IMG/VR virus record: IMGVR_UViG_3300017706_002620
Location: 1-50,230 of that record
Reading direction: 5' to 3' (one strand)
DNA from: a virus
Length of the DNA stretch: 50,230 bases
Below, piece after piece: positions 1 to 37,788 of this stretch (position 1 is its first letter; each line of letters starts with the position of its first letter). The position numbers were made by a program, and so were the translations under genes. The notes under the pieces were generated by a model that saw nothing but the letters and a program-made list of their open reading frames with translations, had not been told where the DNA came from and did no database searches.

Positions 1-642
1 TGCTTACCTGTAATTGATTACTGGGGGAAGGAGGATAAGGTCAGAGTTGATGTAAACCCATGGAAATGGAGATTATCAAGGAATGACACACATATCACGC
101 ATGATATTCCTGCGAAGCATAGAAGATATGATAAAAATGGAAATGTTTATTCAGTTGGATCTGATGGGTGTGATTATGTGCATACAGACAATTATCAACC
201 AATACCACACATGAATTTTTACACGCCCCAACATGAGCAAATTAGACAACAAATTTTAACTGATATGGATTTTAGAGATGCTAATTTAGAAAATTATAGT
301 AAGTTTATAAATGCAGCAGTCCAGGAGTTACCCGCAGTGCACCATTATTCGTGGTTTGATATTAAAAGAAAAATTTATACATACAAAAGCTATTGGTCAA
401 AACATTGGGCAAGCTTATATGATCGTGTCACTGATGATATTCCAGAAAATAATATGTTTTTTGATAAAAAATGGTCAGAAGTAAGTGATAAAGAGATTGT
501 AAATCTTTCTAATAAGATGGATAATGAATTAGGTGGATGGGTTTTTCATACTAGAGTAGACTTTAATAAGCCCACACCTTGGTATAGCATAGACAAAGAT
601 CACCCAATATTAATTCAAGAGTGGTTGCAGGAGAGAAAATAA
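1..642 (+). CDS. C-terminal part of an unidentified protein, possibly a glycosyltransferase (5' truncated)
   Basis: The frame is open from the first base, so the gene begins upstream of the window. Only 213 codons and the stop are visible. A GTG at 178 is in this frame, but it has no ribosome binding site and coding runs straight through it, so it is not the start. The visible part is soluble and rich in Trp, Tyr, His and Asp, with segments such as NPWKWRLSR and DIKRKIYTYKSYWSKHW. I see no catalytic motif. Position at the head of a run of glycosyltransferase genes, and a general resemblance to C-terminal halves of phage GT2 proteins, suggest a glycosyltransferase. That is inference. The next gene starts directly after the stop. 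Confidence 0.45.
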   Translation, partial: CLPVIDYWGKEDKVRVDVNPWKWRLSRNDTHITHDIPAKHRRYDKNGNVYSVGSDGCDYVHTDNYQPIPHMNFYTPQHEQIRQQILTDMDFRDANLENYSKFINAAVQELPAVHHYSWFDIKRKIYTYKSYWSKHWASLYDRVTDDIPENNMFFDKKWSEVSDKEIVNLSNKMDNELGGWVFHTRVDFNKPTPWYSIDKDHPILIQEWLQERK

Positions 643-948
643 ATGCAGACAGAAAATTTATTTCAAGTTTTTTCACAAATTTTTATTGAAAGTCAACAAT
701 CTTTTAATAAATGCGATATTAATTTGAGAACTAAATGCAGGACATTATCAGAAAAACTAAGTAGGATGGTCGAAGAATTAGAAGAAGACCCCTTCAAAGC
801 TGATATATCCTTGCTTGAATCTTTAGAAGAAGATACGCTACGTATACTCAAGTCGTGTACTGAATTAGAAAACAGAAGAGAAATGATTAAAGATTCAGTT
901 AGATCACTCCAAAATTCGACAAAAAATAAAATCGGAAGGAGTAAATAG
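643..948 (+). CDS. small helical protein of unknown function
   Basis: Encodes 101 residues. The ATG follows the upstream stop without a gap and has a GGAGAG ribosome binding site about seven bases upstream, inside the previous gene. The product is charged and looks almost wholly alpha-helical: residues 25-85 alternate hydrophobic and Glu/Lys/Arg positions and could form a coiled coil. Two or three scattered Cys show no metal-binding spacing. There is no signal peptide or membrane segment. It sits between two genes of the glycan block and probably shares their transcript. I do not recognise the family. Confidence 0.6.
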   Translation: MQTENLFQVFSQIFIESQQSFNKCDINLRTKCRTLSEKLSRMVEELEEDPFKADISLLESLEEDTLRILKSCTELENRREMIKDSVRSLQNSTKNKIGRSK

Positions 949-1671
949 ATGAGAAAAACTGTTTGTTTTGTGACACCAACATATAACGCCTCATTTCACT
1001 TAAGAGAGTGTTATGAGTCTTTAAAAGAACAATCTAACCCTAATTGGGAGTGGGTTATTTTAAATGACATGTCTAACGATGATACATTTGAAATTGCAAA
1101 TGAAATAGTAATGTCTGACGAAAAAGAAAGGGTGACATTTTTTAACCACGATCATAAAAAGTTTGCACTAAAAGGTATATACGATTATTTGCGTAATTAT
1201 AATGATTTTTCTAAACAAGTTATCGCTATTTTAGACGGAGATGACGCTCTCTGTAATGAGAATACTGTTGACTTAATATTAAAAGAATACGACAAAAATC
1301 CTAATCTAGATGCACTTTGGACTGCACATTCTTGGGATATCAACGGTATGAATATTTCTCGAGAACTTCCAGGAAATTTAAACCCATATCAATATCCATG
1401 GGTGAGTTCTCACTTAAAAACTTTTAAAGTCAACACATTTAAAAAAATTAAAAAAGAAAATTTTAAAGATTTAGATGGCAACTGGTTTGAGAGAGGTTAT
1501 GACCAAGCCTTATACTTACCTATTTTACATCTGGCAACAGAAAGAAAGTTCTTAAACGAAACATGCTACCTCTACAGAATTAATTCTAATTCTTTAAAAG
1601 TAAGAGACTGGAAAGAGAAAAGTCAAATGGACACGATACGTTTAGTGAGATCAAGAGGGTTAGTGCAATGA
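949..1671 (+). CDS. family 2 glycosyltransferase
   Basis: Encodes 240 residues with a GT-A fold signature. The N-terminus has the nucleotide-sugar binding start PTYNA (residues 10-14), followed by a helix and WVILNDMSNDDT. The metal-binding segment DGDD lies at residues 96-99. GT2 enzymes transfer a sugar from a nucleotide donor, here presumably in the cytoplasm because no membrane segment is present. The length is normal for a single GT2 domain without extension. The start has an AAGGAG site about eight bases upstream. The last four bases overlap the cupin gene (ATGA), so translation is probably coupled. Donor and acceptor cannot be told from the sequence. Confidence 0.85.
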   Translation: MRKTVCFVTPTYNASFHLRECYESLKEQSNPNWEWVILNDMSNDDTFEIANEIVMSDEKERVTFFNHDHKKFALKGIYDYLRNYNDFSKQVIAILDGDDALCNENTVDLILKEYDKNPNLDALWTAHSWDINGMNISRELPGNLNPYQYPWVSSHLKTFKVNTFKKIKKENFKDLDGNWFERGYDQALYLPILHLATERKFLNETCYLYRINSNSLKVRDWKEKSQMDTIRLVRSRGLVQ

Positions 1672-2009
1672 GTTTAAGAAAAATTGATAAACCCTGGGGT
1701 TCTGAGACAATTTTTGCTGAATCTAAAAAATATGTTGGTAAATTCATGCACATTAAGAAAAATAGTAGAATGAGCTTGCAATACCACGAAGTAAAAGAAG
1801 AAACAATATATGTCCAAAAAGGTGTTTTAAGGGTTTGGGAAAGTAAAGATGATAATCAATACATTGATTTGCAACCCGGGAGTATTTACCACGTCAAACC
1901 TGGTAAAATTCATAGGTTCGGCGCATCATCTGAACATGTACATTTAATTGAAGTAAGTACACCTGAACTAGATGATGTTGTTAGATTAGCGGATGATTAT
2001 AAAAGATGA
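1668..2009 (+). CDS. mannose-6-phosphate isomerase type II-like cupin
   Basis: Encodes a single-domain cupin of 113 residues. The KPWG motif (residues 8-11) and a QYH-x3-EE segment around His40, Glu44 and Glu45 are typical of the isomerase domain of type II phosphomannose isomerase/GDP-mannose pyrophosphorylase. A further His lies at residue 82. The family interconverts fructose-6-phosphate and mannose-6-phosphate, so the protein could feed mannose towards the GDP-mannose dehydratase encoded at 15154. No fused pyrophosphorylase domain is present, so GDP-mannose would have to come from the host or from a gene outside the window. It overlaps its neighbours by four bases on both sides. A general sugar-binding cupin role cannot be excluded. 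Confidence 0.7.
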   Translation: MSLRKIDKPWGSETIFAESKKYVGKFMHIKKNSRMSLQYHEVKEETIYVQKGVLRVWESKDDNQYIDLQPGSIYHVKPGKIHRFGASSEHVHLIEVSTPELDDVVRLADDYKR

Positions 2010-2950
2010 AAATTTTAATGTTAGGAAAACCAGGTGGAACTTTAGCAAGAACTTATGATTGGCACATTGAAGCATTGAATTCAGATGACAAAAAAAGATT
2101 TGATGTAGATTGTATTCACGATTTAAACGGTAATGTTGTGATAACAAAATATGATGTATTCTGGTTCTATGCCAAAGCATTTCCATCCGAACTATATTAT
2201 AAAGTGAAAGAGCTACGACCAGATGCAAAAATAGTGTGTGGTCCTAATATTATGTTAGACAAGCCTGATGTGGGTCTGTCTGACGATTGGGATAAGTGGT
2301 ATGCTAGTGAATGCCGACCAGACATTCACTTAGACCAGGTCATGTTTTATTCTGACCACGTCAAAAAATTTCTACCAGAAGAATTAAAAAGTGTTGCGAA
2401 AACATTGGATAAGTGCATTAAGCTTGACAAAAACTTGTACAGCAATACATCAAAGAAAGAATATGATGTACTTTTATACTCTAAGAAAAGAAGATATGAT
2501 AGCAAGTTTGAAGATTTTAGGTTTGATTTAATATCACTGCTAGATGAAAGTGATATTAAATATTGTGAAGTTCCCGCAGGAAAATTTGGTTCTTACGAAA
2601 GAAAAGACTACTTCAATCTTTTAAATAAATCAAAGTTTATGGTTAATTTGAGTTTGGACGAATGTCCCGGAATCCTTAATTATGAGTCAATGTTTTGTGA
2701 TGTCCCAGTCATTGGTTCAGAACACAACGTTCCAGTAAATAGTGACAAAAACTTACAAGTTGAAAATACTGACTATATGACAGAAAATTACCTTGTAAGA
2801 ACAGATGATGCTGCAAAAAAATACTTTGAAAAAGTTAAAGAAAAGTTATTGAAAGATTACAAACCATCGATTAGTCCTAGAGACTTTGTTTTGGAACACA
2901 CTAATTTTCAAAAATATTGTGACAACGTAGAAGAGTTATTATCTTTATGA
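2006..2950 (+). CDS. GT-B-like glycosyltransferase
   Basis: Encodes 314 residues with no membrane segment. The N-terminus (MKILMLGKPGG) looks like the first Rossmann strand and glycine loop of a GT-B enzyme. The C-terminal half contains KSKFMVNLSLDECPG and NYESMFCDVPVIGSEHNVP, which match the layout of the donor-binding site of GT1/GT4-type enzymes: an acidic residue, then a helix with Glu, then PV-IG. The classical E-x7-E motif is degenerate. It overlaps the preceding cupin gene by four bases (ATGA) and the following glycosyltransferase gene by four bases. It is probably a nucleotide-sugar transferase of the glycan block; substrate unknown. Confidence 0.6.
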   Translation: MKILMLGKPGGTLARTYDWHIEALNSDDKKRFDVDCIHDLNGNVVITKYDVFWFYAKAFPSELYYKVKELRPDAKIVCGPNIMLDKPDVGLSDDWDKWYASECRPDIHLDQVMFYSDHVKKFLPEELKSVAKTLDKCIKLDKNLYSNTSKKEYDVLLYSKKRRYDSKFEDFRFDLISLLDESDIKYCEVPAGKFGSYERKDYFNLLNKSKFMVNLSLDECPGILNYESMFCDVPVIGSEHNVPVNSDKNLQVENTDYMTENYLVRTDDAAKKYFEKVKEKLLKDYKPSISPRDFVLEHTNFQKYCDNVEELLSL

Positions 2951-3891
2951 AAAATTTAAATATCTTCTGTCATATACCTAGAGAAAACTGGGTTGTAGAT
3001 AGATTAGGCGAGGAGTACTCAAAATATTCTAGGCACAATATTAGCCACGTGGAAATTAACGAAAATACAGACATTATATGGTTATTTGCGGGATGGTGTT
3101 GGAATCATATTAATCCAAAAATACTTGAAAATTTTTACACAGTTTGTACAGAACATCATATTGTTAAAAGTAAGTTTGAAAAAGAGAAAAAATCTAGTTT
3201 TTTAAAAAGAGATCCATTCATTAACCATTACCTTACATACACTGAAGAAACCAAAAGCTTTATTAGTCGTTATACAGACAAACCTATAACTATTATACCT
3301 CACTGGATCAATGAAAATCTTTGGAGCAGATATGACAAAAACAGTGTCAGGCAAGAATTAAACATACCTGATAATAAGTACGTAATAAGCAGCTTCCAAA
3401 GAGATACTGAAGGTTTTGATTTAAAAACGCCTAAGCTAGAAAAGGGACCGGATATATTTGTAGAAAAAGTATGCCAAATAAATACCTTTAAAAGAGTACA
3501 CGTTTTATTAGGCGGGTGGCGAAGACAGTACATAATCAAACGCTTGAAAGAGTTAAATATTGAATACACTTATATAGAACTTCCAGAAATTGACATGATC
3601 AATAAGATGTATTGTGCTTCTGATCTTTACTTAATGTCATCTAGAGAAGAAGGTGGACCTCAATCAATATTTGAGGCAAGTTACCTTGAAATACCAATAC
3701 TCTCAACATTTGCAGGCCAATCAAGAAAAATATTAGACAAGAACTGTTTGTACAGTATTAAAGAAGAAATTGATAATAAAAAGTTAAAAAAAGCGATAGA
3801 ATGTGTAAAATCTAATAAAAAAAGTGTAGAATTGTTTGAAGTAAAAAATCACATGTTTGCTTATGATAAATTTTTCGATGAGGTAATTTAG
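2947..3891 (+). CDS. GT4-like glycosyltransferase
   Basis: Encodes 314 residues. The C-terminal domain has a clear GT4 donor-binding segment, SREEGGPQSIFEASYLEIP (Glu234 onward), followed by a conserved-looking GQSRKIL stretch. The N-terminal domain is short and contains a WLFAGW segment. No membrane helix is visible. GT4 enzymes are retaining transferases that use nucleotide sugars, commonly in capsule, O-antigen or protein glycan synthesis. The gene is translationally coupled (ATGA) to the previous glycosyltransferase and ends two bases before the first carbamoyltransferase gene, so the three may act on the same product. Confidence in the fold is good; specificity is unknown. Confidence 0.75.
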   Translation: MKNLNIFCHIPRENWVVDRLGEEYSKYSRHNISHVEINENTDIIWLFAGWCWNHINPKILENFYTVCTEHHIVKSKFEKEKKSSFLKRDPFINHYLTYTEETKSFISRYTDKPITIIPHWINENLWSRYDKNSVRQELNIPDNKYVISSFQRDTEGFDLKTPKLEKGPDIFVEKVCQINTFKRVHVLLGGWRRQYIIKRLKELNIEYTYIELPEIDMINKMYCASDLYLMSSREEGGPQSIFEASYLEIPILSTFAGQSRKILDKNCLYSIKEEIDNKKLKKAIECVKSNKKSVELFEVKNHMFAYDKFFDEVI

Positions 3892-3893
3892 AT

Positions 3894-5525
3894 ATGTATT
3901 TAGCGGGATTCTGGTCAGGGCACGATTGTAGCTACTGTATACTTAAGAACGGCATACCTGTTGTTCATAATGAATATGAAAGGTTCATCAGAGAAAAAGA
4001 ACCTGCAGGTGACTCTTTAAAATTCATGTTTGAAAATTTCTCAGACAAAGAAGAGATTAAACACTTTGCTACATGCTTCCCAACATCAAAAGCAACACAA
4101 TATGAAGAGTCTTTTGAGAAAGCAAAAGAGATCACTAATAAAAACAACGGTACATTGTATGCAGTAGGTCACCATCAGTCCCATGCTGCTAATGCTTTTT
4201 TTTCGTCGAACTTAGACGAAGCAACAATTATAACACTCGATGGTGGCGGTGTTGAACATAATAATTCTCCAACTGCTTGTACTATTTACAAAGGTAAACA
4301 AAATAAAATTGAAAATATTCACACTTTTATTTTAAATGATTTAAACATTGGTGGCGTTTGGACTCGTACAACACGTTACATTTTTAACCTCCAGTCAGGT
4401 TGGCCTAGAGGTCATCAGGCTGGATCAGTCATGGCCATGGCAGCTTTTGGAGACAGAGAAAAGTACTTTAAAGACTTTATTAAAATGTTAACAGTTGATA
4501 ATCGTATCTCAACAGCAAAACCACCTGGTCAGCCGAAAGGTGCAAATGTAGGCACTGATCCAAAGCACCCATATTTGCAAAAGTATAGAGAGATAGCTGA
4601 TAAAAGTGAGCAGGATAAATTTGATTTAGCAGCTAGCCTACAGGCTGCAACTGAACACGTACTAAAGAATTTAATAAAACAAGTAACGGATCAAATCCCT
4701 ACTAAAAACTTGTGTCTTTCTGGAGGTGTAGTTTTAAATTGTGTAGCAATTGGAAAAATTAAGGATTGGTTTCCGTTTATAGAAAATGTCTACATACCTC
4801 CAGCTCCTCATGACGGAGGTTTACCGATAGGGGCTGCGCAATTTGTATGGCATCAAGTTTTAGACAATCCTAGGATACAATGGAAAGACAACAGCTCACC
4901 TTACTTAGGTAAAACATATTTAAAAAAAGAAATAGAGACAGCATTAGATGAAAACAAAAGCGGTAATTTTAGTTTTGAAAAAGATGTAGAAGTTAGTCAC
5001 GTTATAGATCTTCTCGACAGTCAAAAAATAATATCAGTATTCGGAGGAGGATCTGAGTCAGGAAGAAGAGCGCTAGGTAATAGAAGTATCCTCGCTGATC
5101 CTAGGTCTGACAAGATGAAAGAATTAATTAATAAAAAAGTAAAGCATAGGCAATGGTATCGACCCTTCGCACCATCAATGTTAAGAGAAAAAGTATCAGA
5201 GTGGTTTGTTCGTGACGACGATAGTCCGTATATGAACATAGTTATGCATTTTAAAGATAATGTCAAGGATAAAGTTCCTGCTGTGGTTCACAAAGACGGA
5301 ACTGCGAGAGTTCAGACTGTAACAAAAAATGACAATGAGTGGTACTATAATTTCTTAAAAGCGTGGGAGACTAAATCAAACGTCCCTATTATATTAAATA
5401 CTAGTTTTAATGATAGAGAACCTATTTGTGAAACTCCTGAGCACGCCATAGGCTGTTTTTTAAGAACAAACATAGACTATTTATATTTTTACGATGCAAA
5501 AATTCTTGTGAGTAAAAACGGATAA
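3894..5525 (+). CDS. NodU/TobZ-family O-carbamoyltransferase (copy 1)
   Basis: Encodes 543 residues, close to the usual family length. The N-terminal Kae1-like domain has the metal-binding HHQSH motif (His93 to His97) followed by a TLDGGGV strand. The central part has LSGGVVLNCVAIGK. The C-terminal YrdC-like domain carries GGGSESGRRALGNRS (around 382-396) and RPFAPS. Such enzymes use ATP and carbamoyl phosphate, through carbamoyl-AMP, to carbamoylate a hydroxyl group, typically on a sugar. It is adjacent and closely related to the next gene: 5139-5173 and 6741-6775 differ at one base, and the 3' ends are nearly identical. Sugar O-carbamoylation is the simplest role given the neighbours. Modification of hydroxymethylated DNA bases is an alternative. 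Confidence 0.92.
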   Translation: MYLAGFWSGHDCSYCILKNGIPVVHNEYERFIREKEPAGDSLKFMFENFSDKEEIKHFATCFPTSKATQYEESFEKAKEITNKNNGTLYAVGHHQSHAANAFFSSNLDEATIITLDGGGVEHNNSPTACTIYKGKQNKIENIHTFILNDLNIGGVWTRTTRYIFNLQSGWPRGHQAGSVMAMAAFGDREKYFKDFIKMLTVDNRISTAKPPGQPKGANVGTDPKHPYLQKYREIADKSEQDKFDLAASLQAATEHVLKNLIKQVTDQIPTKNLCLSGGVVLNCVAIGKIKDWFPFIENVYIPPAPHDGGLPIGAAQFVWHQVLDNPRIQWKDNSSPYLGKTYLKKEIETALDENKSGNFSFEKDVEVSHVIDLLDSQKIISVFGGGSESGRRALGNRSILADPRSDKMKELINKKVKHRQWYRPFAPSMLREKVSEWFVRDDDSPYMNIVMHFKDNVKDKVPAVVHKDGTARVQTVTKNDNEWYYNFLKAWETKSNVPIILNTSFNDREPICETPEHAIGCFLRTNIDYLYFYDAKILVSKNG

Positions 5526-5528
5526 CAT

Positions 5529-7133
5529 ATGACAAAAAAAGAAAAAATAAAAATCCTAGGGTTCCAAACAGGACATGACGTTTCTTACTGCGTTTTAGAA
5601 GACGGTGTTCCTATACATCATGAAGAACTCGAAAGGTTTACTAGGGAGAAAGAGCCCTTAGGTGACGGTTTACGATTTGGTTTTGATTCCTTAGGTAACG
5701 AAGTTGAAAATATCAAATATTTCACGCTAGGAAACTTTGGCATGTATCAACCCAAAGGTATTAGGAAATGGGGCCCTCGCGGATGTTATGATCATAACTT
5801 AGTAAGAAAAATGAAAGATATTATTGTTAAGAATGACGGCGAATTTTTTGAAGTAGGACACCATTTGTCACATGCTGCCAACGCTTTTCTTACTAGTGAT
5901 TTTGATGACGCATTAATTATAACAATCGATGGCGGTGGTATGGAGTCTGATGGTACCGTGACAGCCTTTACAATAGCTGAAGGTGTAAATAACACTGTTA
6001 AACAGTTAAAGGTTTATGATATTAATGACATAAATCTAGGTGGAATATGGGACAAAGTGACTTCAAAAGTATTTAACTTATCAATAGGCTACCCTATAGG
6101 TAATCAGGCAGGATCAGTCATGGCTATGGCGACAATGGGTACACCTAAATACTTAGAAAGCTTTAATTTGAAAAATATAGATTATGAAAAACTTAAGACC
6201 GTCGCCGCGGAGTCTGAAAAAGAAAGTTTTAATGTTGCTGCATCTCTGCAAAAATTTACTGAAAACACGGTAAAAGAATATTTAAGTCATTACATTGAGA
6301 AGTTGAAACCTAAAAACATATGTTTTTCAGGAGGGGTTTCCTTAAATTGTGTGATGGTAGGAAAAATAAAACAGTGGTTTAGCTGTGTTGAGAATGTATT
6401 CTGTGATCCAGTGCCGTACGACGCAGGATTGTCTTTAGGTAGTGCAAGGTATGTTTGGCATTGTGTTTTAGGAAACCCTAGAATTAAAAACAAAGAAAAT
6501 AAAACCAGTTATCTAGGTAGACAGTATAACAAGCAAACCGTTATTAACTGTTTAAAAAACAACGAAATTAAATTGTCTTATAATAATTCTAGCGACAATG
6601 AGGTGATTAATTTACTTGCGGACAATAACATTATTTCTGTCTTCGGAGGAAAGTCTGAATCGGGCAGACGAGCTCTAGGCAATAGAAGTATCCTTGCGAA
6701 TCCAAAAGATGAAAAAATGAAAGATATTATAAACAGCAAGGTAAAGCATAGGCAGTGGTATCGACCCTTCGCACCTTCTATTCTAGCAGAAGAAGTTGAT
6801 AAATGGTTCGAAGAAAATTATGACAGCCCGTATATGTCTTTTGCAGTAAAATTTAAAGAGTCTAAAAGAAAATTAGTCCCTGCAGTTGCGCACTATGATG
6901 GAACAGGAAGGCTCCAGACTGTGTCAGAAGACACGAACTCGTGGTACTATGGTTTTATAAGGGCGTGGTATGAAAAGTCAGGTGTGCCTATCTTGTTAAA
7001 CACCAGCTTTAACGATCGAGAACCAATCGTAGAGACACCTGAACATGCTATAAATTGTTTTTTAAGAACCAATATAGACTATTTATATTTTTACGATTCA
7101 AAAATATTAGTGAGTAAAAAGGAGAAGAAATGA
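5529..7133 (+). CDS. NodU/TobZ-family O-carbamoyltransferase (copy 2, tandem paralogue)
   Basis: Encodes 534 residues and starts three bases after copy 1. It has the same domain order: HHLSH metal motif (His111 to His115), TIDGGGM, FSGGVSLNCVMVGK, then GGKSESGRRALGNRS and RPFAPS in the YrdC-like part. Catalytic signatures are intact in both copies, so neither looks like a decaying duplicate. Nucleotide similarity is strongly patchy: near-identical blocks at the C-terminal motif and the last 65 bases, with divergence in the N-terminal half and at residues 290-340. This suggests duplication followed by specialisation or gene conversion. The two may carbamoylate different sugars or positions, or act as a heterodimer (inference). 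It overlaps the SGNH gene by four bases. Confidence 0.92.
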   Translation: MTKKEKIKILGFQTGHDVSYCVLEDGVPIHHEELERFTREKEPLGDGLRFGFDSLGNEVENIKYFTLGNFGMYQPKGIRKWGPRGCYDHNLVRKMKDIIVKNDGEFFEVGHHLSHAANAFLTSDFDDALIITIDGGGMESDGTVTAFTIAEGVNNTVKQLKVYDINDINLGGIWDKVTSKVFNLSIGYPIGNQAGSVMAMATMGTPKYLESFNLKNIDYEKLKTVAAESEKESFNVAASLQKFTENTVKEYLSHYIEKLKPKNICFSGGVSLNCVMVGKIKQWFSCVENVFCDPVPYDAGLSLGSARYVWHCVLGNPRIKNKENKTSYLGRQYNKQTVINCLKNNEIKLSYNNSSDNEVINLLADNNIISVFGGKSESGRRALGNRSILANPKDEKMKDIINSKVKHRQWYRPFAPSILAEEVDKWFEENYDSPYMSFAVKFKESKRKLVPAVAHYDGTGRLQTVSEDTNSWYYGFIRAWYEKSGVPILLNTSFNDREPIVETPEHAINCFLRTNIDYLYFYDSKILVSKKEKK

Positions 7134-8011
7134 AACATTTAGTTGTATCAGGTTGTAGCCTAACAATATCTGACGGTGTTAATATTGGTAACAAAAACAG
7201 ATCTTGGGCATGGGCTCTATACGAACACCTAAAAATTGACAATCATGACTTGGAATTCCACAATGTTGGTCTGTCTGGTGGCGGAAATTACTTAATAGCA
7301 ATGAGTTGTATAGATACTGTCCAATGTCTAATTAATTCAGGTGTCCTAGCAAAAGATATTTTTGTAGTAACACAGTGGTCTGGATTATTTAGACCGGCAC
7401 TTTATACAGAGAATTTAAGACAAAATAGAAAAGTTGACTTTCATGAAATGAATACAGAATATACTAATCTAAAGAATTGTAACTTTGAAAAAGGTTTCTT
7501 TGTTGATACTGCAGGTCAGTTTAGAAGAAATAATCCATTTTGGTTAAAGTATCTAGGTGATTATACCAGTACAGCCTCAGCCTTCATTGGTGCACTAGAT
7601 AACATAACAAAACTCCAGTGGTACCTAAAAGCTCAAGGGGTAAAATACAGAATGTTTAACGGTTGGGATATTTTTACTGTATTTGATAAGAAGTCAGAAA
7701 GATTTGGCAGTGACATTGTTATTAATAAAAATCAGTTTGGTGAACATGTATATAATAATATAAACAACACACTTATAAAAGATACATGCCCGATATCACA
7801 AGGTCTTTGGGATCAGATAGACTGGGAATATTTTTGGACTTTTAAAAACAAAAATATAAAGTTTGGCGGGATGATGCAATGGATACAAAATAATGTTGAT
7901 AAGAATTCATGGTATGTCCAACCTCCTAGAGATGTGCACCCGCCTTCTGAAACTGCAAAAATCTTTTGTAAAGAAGTAATATTACCAGCTATGAGGCCTA
8001 ACTATGATTAA
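7130..8011 (+). CDS. SGNH/GDSL-like hydrolase
   Basis: Encodes 293 residues. The block I nucleophile region is SGCS (residues 7-10, Ser10 or Ser7 as nucleophile). Blocks II/III are represented by GLSGGGN (residues 47-53, Asn53 in the oxyanion hole). The C-terminal block V is DVHPP (Asp268, His270). There is no signal peptide, so it acts in the cytoplasm. The family contains esterases, and related folds catalyse O-acetyl transfer to or from glycans. Location directly after two carbamoyltransferases suggests tailoring of the same glycan, by removal or transfer of an acyl group. Its start codon overlaps the previous stop, and its tail overlaps a 38-codon ORF by eight bases. Confidence 0.65.
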   Translation: MKHLVVSGCSLTISDGVNIGNKNRSWAWALYEHLKIDNHDLEFHNVGLSGGGNYLIAMSCIDTVQCLINSGVLAKDIFVVTQWSGLFRPALYTENLRQNRKVDFHEMNTEYTNLKNCNFEKGFFVDTAGQFRRNNPFWLKYLGDYTSTASAFIGALDNITKLQWYLKAQGVKYRMFNGWDIFTVFDKKSERFGSDIVINKNQFGEHVYNNINNTLIKDTCPISQGLWDQIDWEYFWTFKNKNIKFGGMMQWIQNNVDKNSWYVQPPRDVHPPSETAKIFCKEVILPAMRPNYD

Positions 8012-8120
8012 AAAATTAATAGAAACTATTAGAAAGAAAATACAAGAATATAAGACAAGAAGAGATAACAAAAAAAAGATCGAAGAGATCAATGAAAATG
8101 ATCCTTTTATTTACAAGTAG
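8004..8120 (+). CDS. 38-residue basic small protein ending DPFIYK
   Basis: A short ORF begins with an ATG inside the last codons of the SGNH gene and stops at 8120, ten bases before the third carbamoyltransferase. The product is highly charged, Lys/Arg-rich and helical, beginning MIKKLIETIRKKIQEYK and ending NDPFIYK. The overlap and tight fit between two genes support real coding, and it fills the only gap in this stretch. I recall similar short basic proteins ending in DPFIY from marine myoviruses, but this is recollection and not a search result. Function unknown; possibly a nucleic-acid or protein-binding peptide. Confidence 0.5.
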   Translation: MIKKLIETIRKKIQEYKTRRDNKKKIEEINENDPFIYK

Positions 8121-8129
8121 ACGAGAAAA

Positions 8130-9590
8130 ATGAGAATTTTAGGAATAAATTGTTTGAATCACGATGCAGCAGTATCAGTAATCGAAGATGGTGAAATTGT
8201 TTTTGCCAGTCATTCAGAAAGATACAGTAGAATTAAAAACGACATGTATTTAAATGACAGTATTATGTCTGAAGCACTTTCTTTCGGAACACCTGATAAA
8301 GTTGCATATTATGAAAGACCGTGGATTAAAAAAACAAGACAACTTTACGCTGGTCAGTACGCAGAGGCTTTTGATCGTAGCAACTTACCTTCTATCTATT
8401 TAGGTAAGTGGTTTGACACAAAAAAGATTAATTATTATGATCATCATAAAAGTCACGCAGCTGCAGGATATTTTACTAGTCAGTTTGAAGAGAGTGTGAT
8501 TTTGGTCGTTGATGGGATTGGTGAGTGGGATGTAGTATCTATATGGCACGCTTGCGGCAATAAAATCAAGAAAGTAAAAAGTATTAAATACCCTCATTCT
8601 TTAGGGTTGTTTTATTCAGCAGTCACTAAAAATATAGGTCTCAAACCTTGCGAAGAGGAATATATTTTAATGGGAATGTCAGCTTGGGGTAAACCAATAC
8701 ATGCAGAAAAACTTCATAATGATTTGTTTTTAAAAGATCACCAAACACTTCGGCTAAAATATAATTTACACAAAGGTTTAGGTACTTATGGTTCTAGCTA
8801 TAAACCATTTGATTTTGCTGCCAGTGCTCAAAAAGTAACAGAAGAAGCCTTAGATAAGTTGCTGTCATACACGAAAAAGATGTTTCCAAATATTGACAAC
8901 TTAGTATATATGGGTGGGTGTGCTTTAAATTGTGTTGCAAATGCAAAAGTAGTGCCAAAATACTTTAAAAATACATGGATAATGCCTAATCCTGGTGATG
9001 CCGGATCTAGTTTAGGCGCTGCCGCGCTATGTTACGGAAAAAAATTAAATTGGACCGGTCCATTCTTAGGGCATGATATAAAGAATAAATACCCGGTTAA
9101 AGAAGCTTTAAAGTTATTGGTAAAAGGTGACATTATTGGTATTGCTAACGGCAAAGCTGAATTTGGACCTAGAGCACTTGGAAATAGAAGTTTGTTAGCG
9201 GATCCAAGAGGTGACGATATTAAAGATCGAGTTAATGTAATAAAACGTCGTCAAAAATTTAGACCTTTTGCGCCCTCGATACTAGAAGAGTTTGCAGATC
9301 AAGTTTTTGAAATGCCTGTAAAAAAAGTTCCTTATATGCAATTTGTTGCCAAGTGCAAGAGGCCAGATTTATATCCAGCAATTTGTCATGTAGATAATAC
9401 ATCAAGAGTCCAAACAGTTAGTAAAAAAGATAACCCGGGTTATCATTCGCTCCTGACAGAATTTTATAAATTAACTGGGTGCCCTATGTTATTAAATACT
9501 AGCCTCAATATTAAAGGCCAACCAATTGTAAATAATGAAAAAGACGCAATAGAATTTCAAAAGCACTACAACATAAGGGTTTTAGTATGA
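8130..9590 (+). CDS. NodU/TobZ-family O-carbamoyltransferase (copy 3, divergent)
   Basis: Encodes 486 residues, shorter than copies 1 and 2. It begins MRILGINCLNHDAAVS, with the usual ATPase-like first strand. The metal motif is HHKSH (His105 to His109), followed by VVDGIGEW. Later come MGGCALNCVANAK and, in the YrdC-like domain, GKAEFGPRALGNRS (about 341-354), with RPFAPS and LLNTSLN. The FGPRALG form is the more common family version; copies 1 and 2 have SGRRALG. This copy therefore belongs to a different lineage and is not part of the recent duplication. It probably carbamoylates a hydroxyl on another glycan position. Its stop overlaps the start of the aminotransferase gene (ATGA). Confidence 0.9.
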   Translation: MRILGINCLNHDAAVSVIEDGEIVFASHSERYSRIKNDMYLNDSIMSEALSFGTPDKVAYYERPWIKKTRQLYAGQYAEAFDRSNLPSIYLGKWFDTKKINYYDHHKSHAAAGYFTSQFEESVILVVDGIGEWDVVSIWHACGNKIKKVKSIKYPHSLGLFYSAVTKNIGLKPCEEEYILMGMSAWGKPIHAEKLHNDLFLKDHQTLRLKYNLHKGLGTYGSSYKPFDFAASAQKVTEEALDKLLSYTKKMFPNIDNLVYMGGCALNCVANAKVVPKYFKNTWIMPNPGDAGSSLGAAALCYGKKLNWTGPFLGHDIKNKYPVKEALKLLVKGDIIGIANGKAEFGPRALGNRSLLADPRGDDIKDRVNVIKRRQKFRPFAPSILEEFADQVFEMPVKKVPYMQFVAKCKRPDLYPAICHVDNTSRVQTVSKKDNPGYHSLLTEFYKLTGCPMLLNTSLNIKGQPIVNNEKDAIEFQKHYNIRVLV

Positions 9591-10174: not shown

Positions 10175-10920
10175 TGAATGAAAAAAACTTAGGAGAAATT
10201 TTAGAAGTTTATGTTTGGACATCAAACGTCCAGATGGTTTGCATGCCGGCATGGGCTTATTTGTTTAATAAATTCTGGCCATACAATAAAAAAGTAACTG
10301 TTATAGGTTATGATTTTCCAGATTTTAAATTACCCGCAAATTTTAAATACGTTTCGCTAGGTACACAAAGAGGCCCTAAATTCTGGTCGGATGATATGAT
10401 AAGTTATTTCAGTAACGTGTCTGACGATTTATTTTATATGACAACAGAGGATGGATTCTTAGTTGATGACGTTGATAAAGAAATACAGCATAACGCTGCC
10501 AGAATAGCACCATCAAAAAGCGATTTTGCAAAGCTTAATTTGACAGCTAATTTAAGACAAAGAGCACACACTACTGTCGAAAGGGCGAAGAGATTTGATT
10601 TAATTAAAGCAGACCAAACTGCTGAATATAGAAATAGTTTGCATCACTCTATTTTTGAAAGAGAAAAGTTTTTACATACATTAGTTCCTGGCCAAACTCC
10701 TTGGGAGTATGAATTAGACTTTGAGACAGCCTCAAAATACAATCACGGTATATATGGTACAAGTAAAGAATATGCTTTAAAGGTAGGACATGGTTATAAA
10801 AAAGGTAGAAAAATACCGAATTGGTATTCTAATCTACATGCAAATGTAAGTAGTGTCAAACAACTAAATAAAAGTGACATTGCTTATATTGAAAAAAATA
10901 ATTGGGTACCACCCATTTAA
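10171..10920 (+). CDS. probable glycosyltransferase of unassigned family
   Basis: Encodes 249 residues without membrane segments. Visible blocks include WPYNKKVTVIGYDFPDF, LPANFKYVSLGTQRGPKFWS, MTTEDGFLVDDVD and FEREKFLHTLVPGQTPWEYE. The TTEDGFLVD segment resembles a metal-binding acidic motif in a GT-A-like fold, and the late TPWEYE segment resembles acceptor-site segments in some capsule glycosyltransferases. It overlaps the aminotransferase gene by four bases and precedes the acyltransferase gene by eleven bases, which places it within the amino-sugar set. The identification is inference from motif layout and context, not a firm family match. Confidence 0.5.
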   Translation: MMNEKNLGEILEVYVWTSNVQMVCMPAWAYLFNKFWPYNKKVTVIGYDFPDFKLPANFKYVSLGTQRGPKFWSDDMISYFSNVSDDLFYMTTEDGFLVDDVDKEIQHNAARIAPSKSDFAKLNLTANLRQRAHTTVERAKRFDLIKADQTAEYRNSLHHSIFEREKFLHTLVPGQTPWEYELDFETASKYNHGIYGTSKEYALKVGHGYKKGRKIPNWYSNLHANVSSVKQLNKSDIAYIEKNNWVPPI

Positions 10921-10931
10921 AAGGTTGCTTT

Positions 10932-11465
10932 ATGATAAAAGGATTTGACGTTTTTCTAAATGATGATATACATTTAAAAGAAAAATTGACAATAATTGGC
11001 AACCACGTTGCTATTGACAAAGGATTCTATTGCACAACTAGTTTAAGTTTAGGAAGCTATATTCATATAGGGCCATATACTGTTGTAATAGGTGGGAAAA
11101 ATTCAAAGCTAATAATGAAAGATTTTTCTTTTATGTCTGCTGGATGTAAAGTAGTGGCAGGTTCTGACGATTTTAACGAATCAAATTTAATGGGCCCTTT
11201 GATACCTGATGATATTAAAAAAATATTAACAACAGAGATAATATTTGAAAAATTTGCAGGATTAGGGGTAAACTGTACTATACTTCCAGGCATAACATTA
11301 TCTGAAGGTTCAATTGTTTGTGCCAGCTCGACAGTCACAAAAAATACCAAACCTTGGACGATATACGCTGGTAATCCTGCCCGACCTATTGGAAAGAGAG
11401 ACAAAAACAGAATTCTTTTACAAGAATCTAAAATTAGAAAAAGAGGTAATAATGAAAAAGAGTGA
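10932..11465 (+). CDS. hexapeptide-repeat (LbH) acyltransferase
   Basis: Encodes 177 residues from the ATG at 10932, which has an AAAAGG site about eight bases upstream. An in-frame ATG at 10902 lies inside the previous gene and lacks a comparable site. The product shows the left-handed beta-helix pattern of alternating small and aliphatic residues (GSYIHIGPYTVVIGG, then GLGVNCTILPGITLSEGSI) and ends with the typical NPARPIGKR. Such enzymes transfer acetyl or longer acyl groups from CoA or acyl carrier protein to sugar hydroxyl or amino groups. The acyl carrier protein gene overlaps its 3' end by 14 bases, so acyl-ACP is a likely donor here (inference). Confidence 0.85.
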   Translation: MIKGFDVFLNDDIHLKEKLTIIGNHVAIDKGFYCTTSLSLGSYIHIGPYTVVIGGKNSKLIMKDFSFMSAGCKVVAGSDDFNESNLMGPLIPDDIKKILTTEIIFEKFAGLGVNCTILPGITLSEGSIVCASSTVTKNTKPWTIYAGNPARPIGKRDKNRILLQESKIRKRGNNEKE

Positions 11466-11757
11466 TGCCAGAAATATTATTGTTGAATCAATAAGGAGCA
11501 ACATTGATATAAACAATGATCAAGAAACAATTTTAAAAGAAAACCCAGAAGATTTTGAAATTATAGGGTCACACGACAATATTGACTCACTCGATTTAGT
11601 TAGTATTCTTGTTGATGTAGAAGCACAGGTTCATGATAAATACGGTAAAATTATAATGCTTTCAAGCGACAAAGCAATGTCCCAAAATAATAGTCCTTTT
11701 AGAAACGTAAAAACTCTCACCTTGTTCCTTATTGAAGAGTTTGAAAATGAAAAATAA
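11452..11757 (+). CDS. acyl carrier protein
   Basis: Encodes 101 residues from the ATG at 11452 (AGAGG about eight bases upstream). A longer reading from 11314 would run through the acyltransferase gene in another frame and is rejected. The diagnostic DSLD motif lies at residues 45-48, with Ser46 as the phosphopantetheine attachment site, followed by an acidic helix LVSILVDVEAQV. The protein is slightly longer than a standard ACP of about 80 residues. No phosphopantetheinyl transferase is visible in the window, so a host enzyme must activate it. It overlaps both the acyltransferase and the ketoreductase genes, which argues for a dedicated acyl-loading set. Confidence 0.85.
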   Translation: MKKSDARNIIVESIRSNIDINNDQETILKENPEDFEIIGSHDNIDSLDLVSILVDVEAQVHDKYGKIIMLSSDKAMSQNNSPFRNVKTLTLFLIEEFENEK

Positions 11758-12448
11758 ATCTGTTGTTGTAACAGGCACATCAAAGGGAATTGGGAAGTAC
11801 ATAACCGAACAGTTGCTTAGTTTAGGATACTTTGTTTATGGGTGTTCTAGATCTAACATCGATATAAATCACAAAAATTATTTTCATTTTCAGATTAATA
11901 TTACAAGCGAAAGAGAAGTAGTTGAAATGTTTAAATCAATTAGAAATGATAGTAATCCACCGTTGTACGGGATGATAAATAATGCAGGTATAGCATCAAT
12001 GAATCATTGTATGTTAATGCCGGCACAAACTGTTAAAAATATATTCGAAGTCAATTTTAACGGAACGTTTATTTGTTCCAGAGAGGCATCAAAAATAATG
12101 AAAAAGTACAAGGCGGGAAGGATTATAAACTTCTCAACAATTGCTGTGCCCATGTCTCTAGGTGGTGAGTCAGTATATGCTGCGTCAAAGGCAGCAGTTG
12201 AGACTTTTAGTAAAAGTTTTGCCAAAGAAGTATCGAGTTTCGGAATCACAGTTAACACTATAGGGCCGAACCCAATTAAAACAGATTTAATTAAAAATGT
12301 CAAAAATGAAAAGTTAGAGAATATAATTCAACAACAAACTATAAAAAGATTTGGTACTTTTGAAGACGTAATGAATGTAATAAATTTTTATCTTGATAAA
12401 AATAGTTCCATGATAACCGGTCAAAAAATATATCTTGGAGGGCTTTAG
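11747..12448 (+). CDS. SDR-family 3-oxoacyl-ACP reductase-like protein
   Basis: Encodes 233 residues from the ATG at 11747, which has GAAGAG about eight bases upstream; a TTG five codons earlier is less likely. A classical short-chain dehydrogenase layout is present: TGTSKGIG (residues 9-16) for NAD(P) binding, NNAG, Ser130, and Tyr144-x3-Lys148 in YAASKAA. The late NTIGPNPIKTDL segment fits FabG-like enzymes. Flanked by an acyl carrier protein and an acyl-activating ligase, it likely reduces a 3-oxoacyl group carried on the ACP, or alternatively a keto sugar. It overlaps the ACP gene by 11 bases and the ligase gene by one base. Confidence 0.85.
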   Translation: MKNKSVVVTGTSKGIGKYITEQLLSLGYFVYGCSRSNIDINHKNYFHFQINITSEREVVEMFKSIRNDSNPPLYGMINNAGIASMNHCMLMPAQTVKNIFEVNFNGTFICSREASKIMKKYKAGRIINFSTIAVPMSLGGESVYAASKAAVETFSKSFAKEVSSFGITVNTIGPNPIKTDLIKNVKNEKLENIIQQQTIKRFGTFEDVMNVINFYLDKNSSMITGQKIYLGGL

Positions 12449-13797
12449 TGGATCATTTTGATAATGTTTGGAGTTCTATAAATAGTTGGGACAAAGAAAG
12501 TCTAGCCATTGTTTGTGATAATACAAGATATTCTTACAATAATTTAATTAATAAAGTTTATTATTACGTAAATTTTTTAAATCAAGAAGTTAATGATCTG
12601 CAAGGAAAAATAGTAGCAATCAAATCAAGTATGAGTTTTGATTCAATATGTTTGTTTTTTGCATTATGTAAATGTAAGTGTATCGTTGTTCCTGTTTCTG
12701 AAAATTCTTTTAAAAATATTGAATTTTATTGTGACAAAGCAAACGCTGATTACATTATTGACTTAACAAACAAACATGTTATACTAATTAAAAGGACAGA
12801 CTTATCAAAAAAACATGAATATCTTAATAAAATAAGAGAAAAAAACAAATCTGGTCTTATCGTATTTTCTTCTGGAAGTTCTGGAAAACCAAAAGGTGCG
12901 GTCCACGACATTGACTACATTTTTGAAAAGTTTATAAAACCAAGAAGAAAATTAAAAACGTTATCCTTTTTATTGTTTGATCATTTGGGAGGGATCAATA
13001 CTTTCATTTACGTCCTCAGTAGCGGTGGGTGTCTCGTAATACCTGAAAACAAAACAGTAAATAAAGTACTCAAAACTGTTGAAGAATTTAAAGTTGAACT
13101 TTTACCTACTTCTCCTTCATTTCTAAATCTAATGTTGGCTAGTGAGCTTTATGAAAAATATGATTTAAGTTGTTTGAAGATAATATCATACGGCACAGAG
13201 ATGATGCATGAAAAAGTATTACAAAAGCTAAACAAAACATTTGAAAATGTAACATTACAACAAACGTATGGGTTGACTGAGATTGGTGTCTTGCGTTCTA
13301 AATCGCTAAGCAATGATTCGTTGTGGGTAAAATTAGGTGGAAAAGAGTTTAAAACGAGAGTTGTCGATGGAAAGTTACAAATTAAAGGAAAATCAACGAT
13401 GTTGGGTTACCTAAATGCAGAAAACCCGTTTACAGAAGATGGTTGGCTTAAAACTGGTGATAACGTCGAAGTCGATGGAGACTACTATAAAATACTAGGA
13501 AGGGACACTGACATAATAATTGTAGGGGGACAAAAGGTGTATCCAGCTGAAGTAGAAAACATTATTTTAGACATGAAAGAGGTAAAAGACGTAACAGTTT
13601 TCTCAGAGAAAAATTCTTTGATAGGTTCAATAGTTTGCGCAAAAATAGTACCTAAAGATTTAGGTGTTTCTCATAAAAGACTAAGGTCAGATATTAAAAA
13701 ATATTGCAGCAATAGAATGGAAAAATTTAAAATTCCTGTTAAAATATTATTTGTTGATTCATTAGTTAGCAATAGATATAAAAAAGTTAGGAGTTGA
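12448..13797 (+). CDS. ANL-superfamily AMP-forming acyl ligase
   Basis: Encodes 449 residues from a GTG that overlaps the previous stop by one base, with TGGAGGG upstream. The ATP-binding loop is SSGSSGKPKGAV (Ser141 onward). The A5 motif is YGLTEIG (Tyr274 onward), the A7 motif includes TGD (336-338), and the hinge region GRDTDIIIVGGQKVYPAEVE follows. The catalytic lysine is probably in the last seven residues (RYKKVRS), where other members have a TGKI-x-R motif. The family activates carboxylic acids as acyl-AMP and passes them to CoA, ACP or an amine. With ACP and ketoreductase beside it, loading of a short acyl or hydroxyacyl chain onto the ACP is likely. At 449 residues it is somewhat shorter than the usual 500-550. 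Confidence 0.88.
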   Translation: MDHFDNVWSSINSWDKESLAIVCDNTRYSYNNLINKVYYYVNFLNQEVNDLQGKIVAIKSSMSFDSICLFFALCKCKCIVVPVSENSFKNIEFYCDKANADYIIDLTNKHVILIKRTDLSKKHEYLNKIREKNKSGLIVFSSGSSGKPKGAVHDIDYIFEKFIKPRRKLKTLSFLLFDHLGGINTFIYVLSSGGCLVIPENKTVNKVLKTVEEFKVELLPTSPSFLNLMLASELYEKYDLSCLKIISYGTEMMHEKVLQKLNKTFENVTLQQTYGLTEIGVLRSKSLSNDSLWVKLGGKEFKTRVVDGKLQIKGKSTMLGYLNAENPFTEDGWLKTGDNVEVDGDYYKILGRDTDIIIVGGQKVYPAEVENIILDMKEVKDVTVFSEKNSLIGSIVCAKIVPKDLGVSHKRLRSDIKKYCSNRMEKFKIPVKILFVDSLVSNRYKKVRS

Positions 13798-13799
13798 AA

Positions 13800-14690
13800 T
13801 TGAAAAACTATTTTACTGATGCAGCTGCTCTCGACATTCCGTGGATAGAGTCACCTTTTTTTAATTCGTTAATAAAACATACAGATCATAGTAGCGAACA
13901 AAAATCTTTTATTAAAGATTATGTTGAAAAAGGCTATGTGATTATTGATTTAAATGTTTCCGACGATCAAATTAAGTCTATAAGGCATGATTTAGACTTG
14001 TACATTCAGCAAAACAAGAGCAATCGTCAAAAAAACTACGAGTATAATGATGGCCCCAGACCATTTCAACTATGGAAACAAAGCCAAGCAATCAAAGATT
14101 TAGCAGTAAACAATCAGATTCTAGAAAAGTTAGAGCTACTTTATGGAAGAAAAGCATTTCCATTCTCAACAATTAATTTTTTGAAAGGATCAGAACAACC
14201 AATGCATAGTGATGCAATACACTTCCATACAGTCCCAAATTTGTGGATGGTAGGTGTCTGGGTTGCACTAGAGGACGTAGATGAAAACAATGGAACTTTA
14301 AAAGTAATTCCTGGTAGTAACAAGTGGGGAACGTGGGAGTATCCTAGTTTGAATCTGCCTCATCCAGATGATATAACCGACGGTGAGGTTGTTCTCTACA
14401 GAGAGTATGAAAATTTTATTAGACACTTAATTGTTGAAAAAAACGTTGAACCTCACGTTCTAAATATTAAAAAAGGACAAGCAGTTATATGGGCTAGCAA
14501 CACGTTGCACGGTTCAATAAAGATTGTTGACAACAGTAGAACGAGGTACGCACAAGCAATTCACTATTTCTTTGAAGGCTGTGAAAAATATTATCATCCT
14601 ATGTTCTCTAAAACACGTTTAGGTCTCTATGCTAAAAAATGGTGTGATGAAAATAATAATATATTAAATTATAAAGATGATAACGATTGA
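13800..14690 (+). CDS. PhyH-family Fe(II)/2-oxoglutarate dioxygenase
   Basis: Encodes 296 residues from the TTG at 13800, chosen because TAGGAG lies about six bases upstream; a TTG two codons earlier is also in frame. The iron triad is His136-x-Asp138 in MHSDAIHFH and His237 in NTLHGS. Arg247 or Arg249 is placed to bind 2-oxoglutarate. A double-stranded beta-helix pattern (VGVWVALEDVDENNGTLKV) lies between them. Family members hydroxylate small molecules, lipids or sugars. Context suggests hydroxylation of the acyl chain made by the preceding ligase, or of a sugar, possibly creating the hydroxyl for carbamoylation. The substrate is inferred only. A gap of 30 bases follows. Confidence 0.82.
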   Translation: MKNYFTDAAALDIPWIESPFFNSLIKHTDHSSEQKSFIKDYVEKGYVIIDLNVSDDQIKSIRHDLDLYIQQNKSNRQKNYEYNDGPRPFQLWKQSQAIKDLAVNNQILEKLELLYGRKAFPFSTINFLKGSEQPMHSDAIHFHTVPNLWMVGVWVALEDVDENNGTLKVIPGSNKWGTWEYPSLNLPHPDDITDGEVVLYREYENFIRHLIVEKNVEPHVLNIKKGQAVIWASNTLHGSIKIVDNSRTRYAQAIHYFFEGCEKYYHPMFSKTRLGLYAKKWCDENNNILNYKDDND

Positions 14691-14720: not shown

Positions 14721-15152
14721 ATGAAAAAGATATACTCAAAAGTAGACAGTGATAAATTAATACACGTAATATTTAGAAAAAGTGATTTTCCTAGCAGTGA
14801 TAGCGAAACGCACAGAATTGATATTGCAGAAGACCACCAGTATCTCCAGCTTTCAGCCCTAACTATGGAAAAAGGCAAAACATTTAAGCCTCACAAGCAT
14901 ATCTGGAAGACTGGTGAAAAAGAGTGTATTGCGCAAGAATCTTGGGTAGTTATAGCTGGCAAAGTTAAATGTTTTTTTTATGACTTGAATGATAAGTTAA
15001 TAAGCAATGAGATTTTAAATCCCGGTGATTGTAGTATGACTTTTGAAGGGGGTCACACTTACCTCATTGAAAGCGAGAATACACTGGTTTATGAATTTAA
15101 AACTGGGCCTTACAAGGGTCAAAAACTTGATAAAGTGTTTATAGGTGAATAA
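14721..15152 (+). CDS. cupin-domain protein
   Basis: Encodes 143 residues with a single cupin barrel. His residues in the FKPHKHIW segment and a Glu in QESWVVIAGKVK form the first cupin motif, and NPGDCSMTFEGGHTYLIE the second, with a His at the metal position. The family includes sugar epimerases, isomerases and metal-binding proteins of lipopolysaccharide loci. It follows one of the few real gaps in the glycan block, has a weak ribosome binding site, and ends directly before the GDP-mannose dehydratase gene. A role in sugar isomerisation is possible but not shown. It is longer than, and not obviously a copy of, the cupin at 1668. Confidence 0.65.
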   Translation: MKKIYSKVDSDKLIHVIFRKSDFPSSDSETHRIDIAEDHQYLQLSALTMEKGKTFKPHKHIWKTGEKECIAQESWVVIAGKVKCFFYDLNDKLISNEILNPGDCSMTFEGGHTYLIESENTLVYEFKTGPYKGQKLDKVFIGE

Positions 15153-15153
15153 A

Positions 15154-17918: not shown

Positions 17919-17928
17919 AGGACAATTG

Positions 17929-18264
17929 ATGAAGTACGTATTCGATATCGATGGCACCATATGCTCAAATACTGGTGGTAAAAATAATTATGTTGACGCT
18001 GAACCTTTTAGCAATCGCATTAAAGAAATCAATAAACTGTATGAAGAAGGAAACACAATACTTTTTCTGACAGCAAGAGGTATGGGTAAAAACGACAATA
18101 ATGTAATTGAAGCATACAATCAATTTTATGAATTGACAAAAAAGCAGTTGAGTCTTTGGGGCGTTAAGTTTCACAAGCTCTATCTTGGAAAACCCGACGC
18201 TGATTTATTTGTAGACGACAAGGGTTGTAGCGATACTGTTTTTTTTAAGGAGCTTGCAAAATGA
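17929..18264 (+). CDS. small HAD-family phosphatase
   Basis: Encodes 111 residues from the ATG at 17929 (AGAGGA about six bases upstream; a TTG one codon earlier is also possible). The HAD nucleophile motif is FDIDGT with Asp6 and Asp8. Motif II is FLTARG (Thr), and the metal aspartates are in FVDDKG near the C-terminus. The protein has almost no cap domain and resembles small HAD phosphatases encoded in capsule and lipopolysaccharide loci. It could remove phosphate from a sugar phosphate, such as a nonulosonate 9-phosphate or a heptose phosphate. It overlaps the next gene by four bases. Confidence 0.75.
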   Translation: MKYVFDIDGTICSNTGGKNNYVDAEPFSNRIKEINKLYEEGNTILFLTARGMGKNDNNVIEAYNQFYELTKKQLSLWGVKFHKLYLGKPDADLFVDDKGCSDTVFFKELAK

Positions 18265-22154: not shown

Positions 22155-22181
22155 AATTTAATATAAAGAAAGGAGGTAAAA

Positions 22182-27000: not shown

Positions 27001-27008
27001 GAGAGAAA

Positions 27009-37780: not shown

Positions 37781-37788
37781 TAAATAAA

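Follow-up and report, generated by a model that had tools for sequence, protein, structure and literature searches.

Three predicted sugar carbamoyltransferases in an exchangeable, membrane-free glycan island of a T4-like phage, with the virion as a possible target

Large contiguous sets of sugar genes are known from T4-like cyanophages such as P-SSM2 and S-SSM7, in which they were described as 'LPS' (lipopolysaccharide) clusters with Nol-like carbamoyltransferases (CTs) (PMC3037559), and cyanophage glycan genes are sporadic and polymorphic between related viruses (PMC7824862). A phage lineage of the same enzyme family acts on 5-hydroxymethylcytosine (5hmC) in DNA, and its enzyme was reported with a printed sequence (PMC8670742). 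Here we analyzed the IMG/VR virus record IMGVR_UViG_3300017706_002620, the whole of which, 50,230 bases, is called the window below. It carries three NodU-type CTs, named CT1, CT2 and CT3, within a glycan island that spans about 29 kb (949-30488) and lies immediately upstream of a T4-like phage's genes for exonuclease, sigma-factor-like protein and baseplate. CTs are common in viruses, and to our knowledge the sole phage CT function tested to date is that on DNA. Phage glycan clusters with Nol-like CTs being known already, it is the exchange of the cassette and its purely soluble gene content that are of interest here.

How does this locus compare with the described systems? It shares with the cyanophage clusters the T4-like background, the large contiguous sugar gene set and the Nol-like CTs. 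It differs from them by its two NeuB modules and its place before baseplate genes; besides, the CT1/CT2 clade is separate from the cyanophage copies, and the P-SSM2 CT used in this analysis sits among nucleotide genes, outside a glycan cluster. With bacterial O-antigen and capsule loci the window shares conserved flanks, a replaced interior, and nucleotide-sugar and glycosyltransferase genes, but Wzx/Wzy-type loci also hold a flippase, a polymerase, an initiating transferase and other multi-membrane proteins, none of which was found in the window island. In flagellin glycosylation islands, a structural protein is glycosylated in the cytosol. The moraphages, large aquatic phages whose core genes include four glycosyltransferases, a sigma factor, gp25 and gp6 and which carry variable islands of uncharacterised content (PMC12619734), may resemble the window in these features, a likeness of description only, and the window holds none of the TerL, MCP and PolB markers. 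The same paper cites the phage case of virion glycosylation, that of the mycobacteriophages (PMC12619734), and little literature on phages with such virion sugars was found beyond it. The window would share cytosolic glycosylation with that case and with the flagellin islands, and its island is far larger than a phage glycosyltransferase pair.

Both Pfam domains of the family, PF02543 at the N-terminus and PF16861 at the C-terminus, match far above cut-off in CT1, CT2 and CT3, so the observation is far beyond chance, and PHROGs assigns all three to 'Nol-like carbamoyltransferase' (phrog_1601, E to 2.6e-117). CT1 and CT2 share 49% identity, and the identity of CT3 with either is 29-32%. Among solved structures, CT1 and CT2 come closest to 7xb6 and TobZ, and CT3 to the novobiocin carbamoyltransferase and GdmN. 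When the proteins were aligned with 36 relatives, the metal-ligand positions of TobZ, which we take to be H-x3-H, D and D, were all found to be kept in the three window copies. The original prediction, that three intact NodU-type enzymes with HHxSH and RALGNRS motifs lie here, is thus confirmed, and these residues give no sign of the loss of metal binding that it had named as a refutation. The family and the conserved residues support CT1-CT3 as predicted sugar O-carbamoyltransferases of the NodU/TobZ type. By the established mechanism of TobZ-type enzymes, the C-terminal domain would convert carbamoyl phosphate and ATP to carbamoyl-AMP, from which the N-terminal domain, with its metal site, would then transfer the carbamoyl group to a hydroxyl of a sugar.

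A maximum likelihood tree was built from 39 proteins, in which some PDB rows are partial and NodU is a long branch of unsure placement. CT1 and CT2 fall inside a viral clade of eight (100/100), and CT3 falls in another viral clade (100/100), of which a plasmid protein of Mesorhizobium huakuii (49%) is a member too. In a wider search the CT3 clade alone yielded 80 virus contigs that were kept, and there were hundreds of further matches to the family. Grouping with TobZ, GdmN or NovN was looked for and rejected for all three copies, so that the antibiotic-type placement, the other refutation named beforehand, did not turn up. Cellular relatives of CT1 and CT2 adjoin NeuB in Pelagibacteraceae, and in a Crocinitomicaceae metagenome-assembled genome they are located in an O-antigen-like cluster, with neighbors that look by eye like acyltransferases, a fucosyltransferase and a GDP-fucose synthase. 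These neighborhoods support surface-type glycans as the likely substrates of CT1 and CT2.

The island is a continuous, same-strand run of sugar-nucleotide, glycosyltransferase and decoration genes (Table 1). All accepted genes of the window are on the + strand and are separated by short gaps or overlap, and between 949 and 30488 sugar metabolism accounts for nearly all genes of recognisable family. This gene content, together with the clade placement, bears out sugar-type CTs in a glycan context as first proposed. Judged by its enzyme families, the island itself would make the sugars, namely a GDP-6-deoxy hexose (probably 4-amino and N-acylated), one or two CMP-nonulosonic acids and a UDP-uronic acid. 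The GDP-mannose 4,6-dehydratase (GMD) would give GDP-4-keto-6-deoxymannose, and since it is accompanied by a DegT aminotransferase, a hexapeptide acyltransferase, an acyl-carrier-protein-like protein, an acyl ligase and a dehydrogenase, an N-acylated amino sugar is suggested. Methylation and carbamoylation would come after sugar synthesis.

The phage genes start at 30744 and include the exonuclease, two GT4 genes, a gp55-like sigma factor and a spike-like protein (both recognised by eye), gp25- and gp6-like wedge proteins and large tail proteins. The two baseplate genes mark this virus record as that of a phage. For the gp6-like protein, matches came from no more than six phage records, with identities near 30%, among them Flavobacterium phage immuto, Microcystis phage Mel-JY01 and a 484-kb uncultured phage; no Kyanoviridae record and no cyanophage gp6 of that family was matched in this search.

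Is the island a stable part of the phage genome? The window was compared gene by gene with five related phages, the nearest three being G015, G016 and G019. In G016 and G019 the genes of the left flank (178-1671) show 66-88% identity, and the right-flank genes from the exonuclease onward are mostly 60-92% identical in all three, with a few faster-evolving tail genes lower. Between these flanks most window genes have no counterpart or less than 40% identity in the three phages, except the small cupin beside the left border, the UDP-sugar dehydrogenase and the epimerase that form the right border, and a HAD phosphatase. The interval is about 4 kb long in G016, where it holds a UDP-sugar dehydrogenase, a sulfotransferase, a methyltransferase and two glycosyltransferases, and about 20 kb long in G019, with different genes. 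Thus the island has been swapped wholesale between conserved flanks in near relatives, like O-antigen loci. Such exchange would change the glycan type between related phages. The two GT4 genes 3' of the exonuclease are present in distant phages too, adjoining those phages' own islands. In the minimal island of G016, a 237-kb relative, the sulfotransferase (L052 7698-8261) would put sulfation instead of carbamoylation at the same locus. The original prediction had left unsaid that the window is phage DNA and that the island is swapped between near relatives, and both were judged the more unusual features.

Where would such a glycan go? Membrane segments were counted by a Kyte-Doolittle scan, which gave 9 segments for the flippase (Wzx) and 6 for the polymerase (Wzy) of E. 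coli O16 as positive controls. No window gene encodes a protein with two or more segments, and none of the 269 genes of islands or CT neighborhoods in 13 related phages encodes one with four or more. The flippase family PF01943 and the initiating transferase family PF02397 are absent from 12 related records, the control genomes being positive. A multi-membrane gene lies near the CT in 51 of 73 cellular loci versus 4 of 67 viral loci, a rough control in which cellular loci of the CT1/CT2 type are mixed with viral loci of the CT3 type. Because no multi-membrane protein, flippase or initiating transferase was found, the pathway is soluble and, if nothing is taken from the host, suffices for assembly in the cytosol only. 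Since every needed component is soluble, the glycan would be assembled in the cytosol, and its attachment to virion proteins of the phage itself may take place there too, as in flagellin glycosylation. A soluble pathway without lipid-carrier or export parts, as expected of a virion glycosylation system, is what the window holds. Mainly because all membrane components are absent, with weak support from the position before the baseplate genes, we favor virion glycosylation over remodelling of the host surface; the whole statement, that these are sugar CTs of a phage glycan island whose glycan is placed on virion proteins, has in our judgment about an even chance of being right.

Several points weigh against it. 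No acceptor protein emerged from the analysis, the T4-like late-promoter signal TATAAATA is no more frequent than chance, and all the records are fragments. Host lipid carriers and flippases could also supply the missing parts, which allows the main rival explanation: the island would remodel the O antigen or capsule of the infected cell by means of that cell's lipid carrier, flippase and polymerase and would thereby keep rival phages from attaching, with the carbamoyl group masking receptor sugars. Such remodelling has been proposed for cyanophage clusters (PMC7824862; PMC2984593), and similar clusters have been read as host-surface masking (PMC7824862). The cellular relatives of CT1 and CT2 in surface-glycan clusters and the O-antigen-like replacement of the cassette also speak for it. 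Yet the membrane counts given above, in the window and in the related islands, are opposite to those of the cellular loci, and the island lies directly next to virion genes, a position that is little proof by itself. We therefore regard host-surface remodelling as a serious but lesser possibility.

If the virion is the target, the replaced membrane-free islands offer a testable case for phages that diversify their own coat sugars, with a bearing on host range, phage competition and virion recognition. A wider scenario can be drawn only tentatively: a T4-like aquatic phage lineage would have a 'glycotype locus', an O-antigen-like swapped cassette whose decorated sugars (carbamoylated, methylated, sulfated, nonulosonic acids), made in the cytosol, coat the virion and vary like a bacterial serotype.

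That the island makes a diffusible, antibiotic-like small molecule seems very unlikely. The acyl-carrier-like protein, acyl ligase, dioxygenase and CTs occur in secondary metabolism too, and such a product was suggested for the CT/halogenase cluster of cyanophage S-SSM6a (PMC7824862). However, glycosyltransferases and two CMP-nonulosonate modules dominate the island and it has no exporter, and the nearest copies are viral and rhizobial-plasmid ones for CT3 and surface-glycan-cluster ones for CT1 and CT2, rather than TobZ, GdmN or NovN.

Could at least one copy carbamoylate 5hmC in the phage DNA? The family does include the phage lineage with this activity (PMC8670742), represented here by the MetaGPA enzyme and its relatives in Xanthomonas phage Xp15, Acinetobacter phage Effie and Bacteroides phage BF503P2, which share with the window CTs the two domains, the phage location and the conserved metal site; and the window genome is incomplete. 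In the tree, however, the 5hmC enzyme and its phage relatives form a clade of their own (100/100) on a branch of 2.5 changes per column. All three window copies are outside it, as the phylogeny proposed beforehand was meant to decide. Forcing CT1+CT2 into the DNA clade was rejected by the approximately unbiased (AU) test with p-AU 5.5e-7, and forcing CT3 with p-AU 4.9e-4. TobZ positions W408, G421 and R423 were flagged as distinguishing modified contigs (PMC8670742). At position 423 every one of the five DNA-lineage rows has T, and the 34 other rows, including CT1-CT3, all have R; at position 421 four DNA-lineage rows have C and the fifth has G, which is also the residue in CT1-CT3; position 408 is uninformative in this alignment. 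The DNA lineage adjoins a thymidylate synthase or deoxycytidylate hydroxymethyltransferase in Xp15 and BF503P2, the neighbors in Effie being without annotation. No such neighbor accompanies the window CTs: PF00303, which covers thymidylate synthase and dCMP hydroxymethylase, has no match among the window proteins scanned, in agreement with the original prediction, nor in 24 records of related viruses, all fragments, the longest of 237 kb, and the C5-methylase family PF00145 has none in 13 related records (fragments). A search for PF12851 (TET/JBP) gave no match either, which is uninformative alone since it had no positive control. The earlier reservation that one copy might modify DNA can thus be largely dropped: the carbamoylated product is very probably a glycan, and action on 5hmC is most improbable. 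The clade split and the R423T marker together give a simple rule to separate sugar-type from DNA-type phage CTs.

Hardly more credible is that the contig joins a bacterial glycan cluster to a phage as a chimera, or that the genes are decaying filler, as similar clusters in large cyanophages were termed possible 'stuffer DNA' (PMC3037559), for related phages have the same flank order around other islands, base composition is even across both borders, and all reading frames are intact and overlapping.

Table 1. Features of the window, from left flank to baseplate genes
Feature	Position	Strand	Evidence
Two conserved phage genes, 154 and 101 aa, left flank	178..948	+	66-76% and 70-71% identical in G016, G019, same place
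GT2 glycosyltransferase, conserved left anchor	949..1671	+	PF00535 2.6e-13; 79-88% in G016/G019
Cupin sugar isomerase-like	1668..2009	+	PF01050/PF07883
Two GT-B type glycosyltransferase-like genes	2006..3891	+	second PF00534 3.2e-08; first weak only: phrog_4356 6.9e-05, PF00534 0.031
CT1, NodU-type, 543 aa	3894..5525	+	PF16861 1.5e-60, PF02543 2.4e-24; HHQSH, RALGNRS
CT2, NodU-type, 534 aa	5529..7133	+	PF16861 2.6e-62, PF02543 2.6e-21; HHLSH, RALGNRS
293-aa protein, putatively SGNH/GDSL-like (by eye)	7130..8011	+	GCSLT near start, DVHP near end; no family match
CT3, NodU-type, 486 aa, separate widely viral clade	8130..9590	+	PF16861 1.2e-56, PF02543 2.1e-41; HHKSH, RALGNRS
Short DegT/DnrJ/EryC1-type sugar aminotransferase, 195 aa	9587..10174	+	PF01041 2.4e-18
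Hexapeptide acyltransferase	10902..11465	+	NCBIfam hexapeptide families to 1e-12, WcaF/WbbJ/NeuD-like
Putative acyl-carrier-protein-like protein	11452..11757	+	DSLDLV motif; no family match
Short-chain dehydrogenase, then AMP-binding acyl ligase	11732..13797	+	PF00106 3.3e-40; PF00501 5.4e-30
PhyH-type 2-oxoglutarate-Fe(II) dioxygenase	13794..14690	+	PF05721 1.5e-18
GDP-mannose 4,6-dehydratase (GMD)	15145..16134	+	PF16363 1.1e-114; E. coli GMD structure 1.7e-91
GT4 glycosyltransferase, HAD capsule-phosphatase-like protein, large GT2 protein	17001..20300	+	PF13692 3.7e-13, TIGR01689 9.3e-08, PF00535 1.8e-07
Nonulosonate module 1: CMP-sugar synthetase, DUF4910 protein, NeuB, GT-B-like protein	20282..24040	+	PF02348, PF16254, PF03102
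S-adenosylmethionine methyltransferase	24095..24913	+	PF13489 1.1e-25
Nonulosonate module 2: CMP-sugar synthetase and NeuB	24910..26374	+	PF02348 2.9e-26, PF03102 1.4e-62; nearest solved is pseudaminic acid synthase
GT2 glycosyltransferase	26386..27000	+	PF00535 2.4e-27
Compact UDP-sugar dehydrogenase and NAD epimerase, partly conserved right border	26988..28762	+	39-85% and 67-76% in relatives
FAD-dependent oxidoreductase and short-chain dehydrogenase	28765..30488	+	replaced in relatives
PD-(D/E)XK exonuclease, right flank	30744..31583	+	PF12705 1.5e-20, phrog_69; 70-92% in relatives
Two conserved GT4 glycosyltransferases of phage lineage	31673..34113	+	PF00534, PF20706; 53-81% in five relatives
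Putative late sigma factor (gp55)-like protein	34399..35145	+	sequence and position; no Pfam match; 58-81% conserved
Baseplate wedge proteins, gp25-like and gp6-like	37289..39633	+	phrog_261 0.00056, phrog_219 1.5e-16

How unusual are three copies? A CT is present in 14 of the 24 related records (12 with one, two with two), and in 49 further virus records, 36 to 361 kb long, that encode a CT3-type protein the number is always exactly one, so more than two were found in none of the 63 other CT-bearing records. Three per virus nevertheless has a precedent, because cyanophage S-SSM7 holds three, of three listed lengths (PMC3037559), and its genome gave CT matches at several places here as well. 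A recent tandem duplication of CT1 and CT2 was considered and rejected: CT1 is sister to L031 (99/95) and CT2 to L032 (100/99), each an ortholog in another phage record that holds only one CT. In Synechococcus phage Sf-CH3 the CT is split into two genes (L085 1998-3625), C-terminal domain first, directly 3' of thymidylate synthase, and a similar arrangement occurs in S-RIM44. By its domain order, the split CT of Sf-CH3 may be a permuted enzyme.

Some minor features concern single genes. A basic small open reading frame of 38 codons (8004-8120) lies between the SGNH-like gene and CT3. For the product of 16139-16993 the structure model is poor (predicted local distance difference test, pLDDT, 45), and we would guess from its FSDGE motif that it is GT-D-like; its 51% homologue in a phage of the same lineage (L249 4989-5825) stands by itself and on the other strand, flanked by the exonuclease and the two conserved GT4 genes. 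The product of 22886-24040 has a low-confidence model (63) with GT-B fold matches only, which suggests a GT-B fold. Downstream of the baseplate genes, the large tail protein at 45687-49283 is 36-43% identical in near relatives, compared with mostly 60-80% for its neighbors, and so evolves much faster. It is followed by the 5' part of a collagen-like (GDTGDTGSNGSNGSDG), Gly/Ser/Asn-rich tail-fibre-like gene (49283-50230, +), which ends open at the contig edge and is one possible glycan acceptor or adhesin. What is more, several island enzymes are compact. The DegT aminotransferase (9587-10174) is of half length, the NeuB proteins at 22182-22889 and 25550-26374 (235 and 274 aa) seem too short for the C-terminal SAF domain, and the third domain of the UDP-sugar dehydrogenase (26988-27848) has no match. 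Such short forms also occur in related phages; for example, the DegT protein of L007 is 63% identical over 196 aa.

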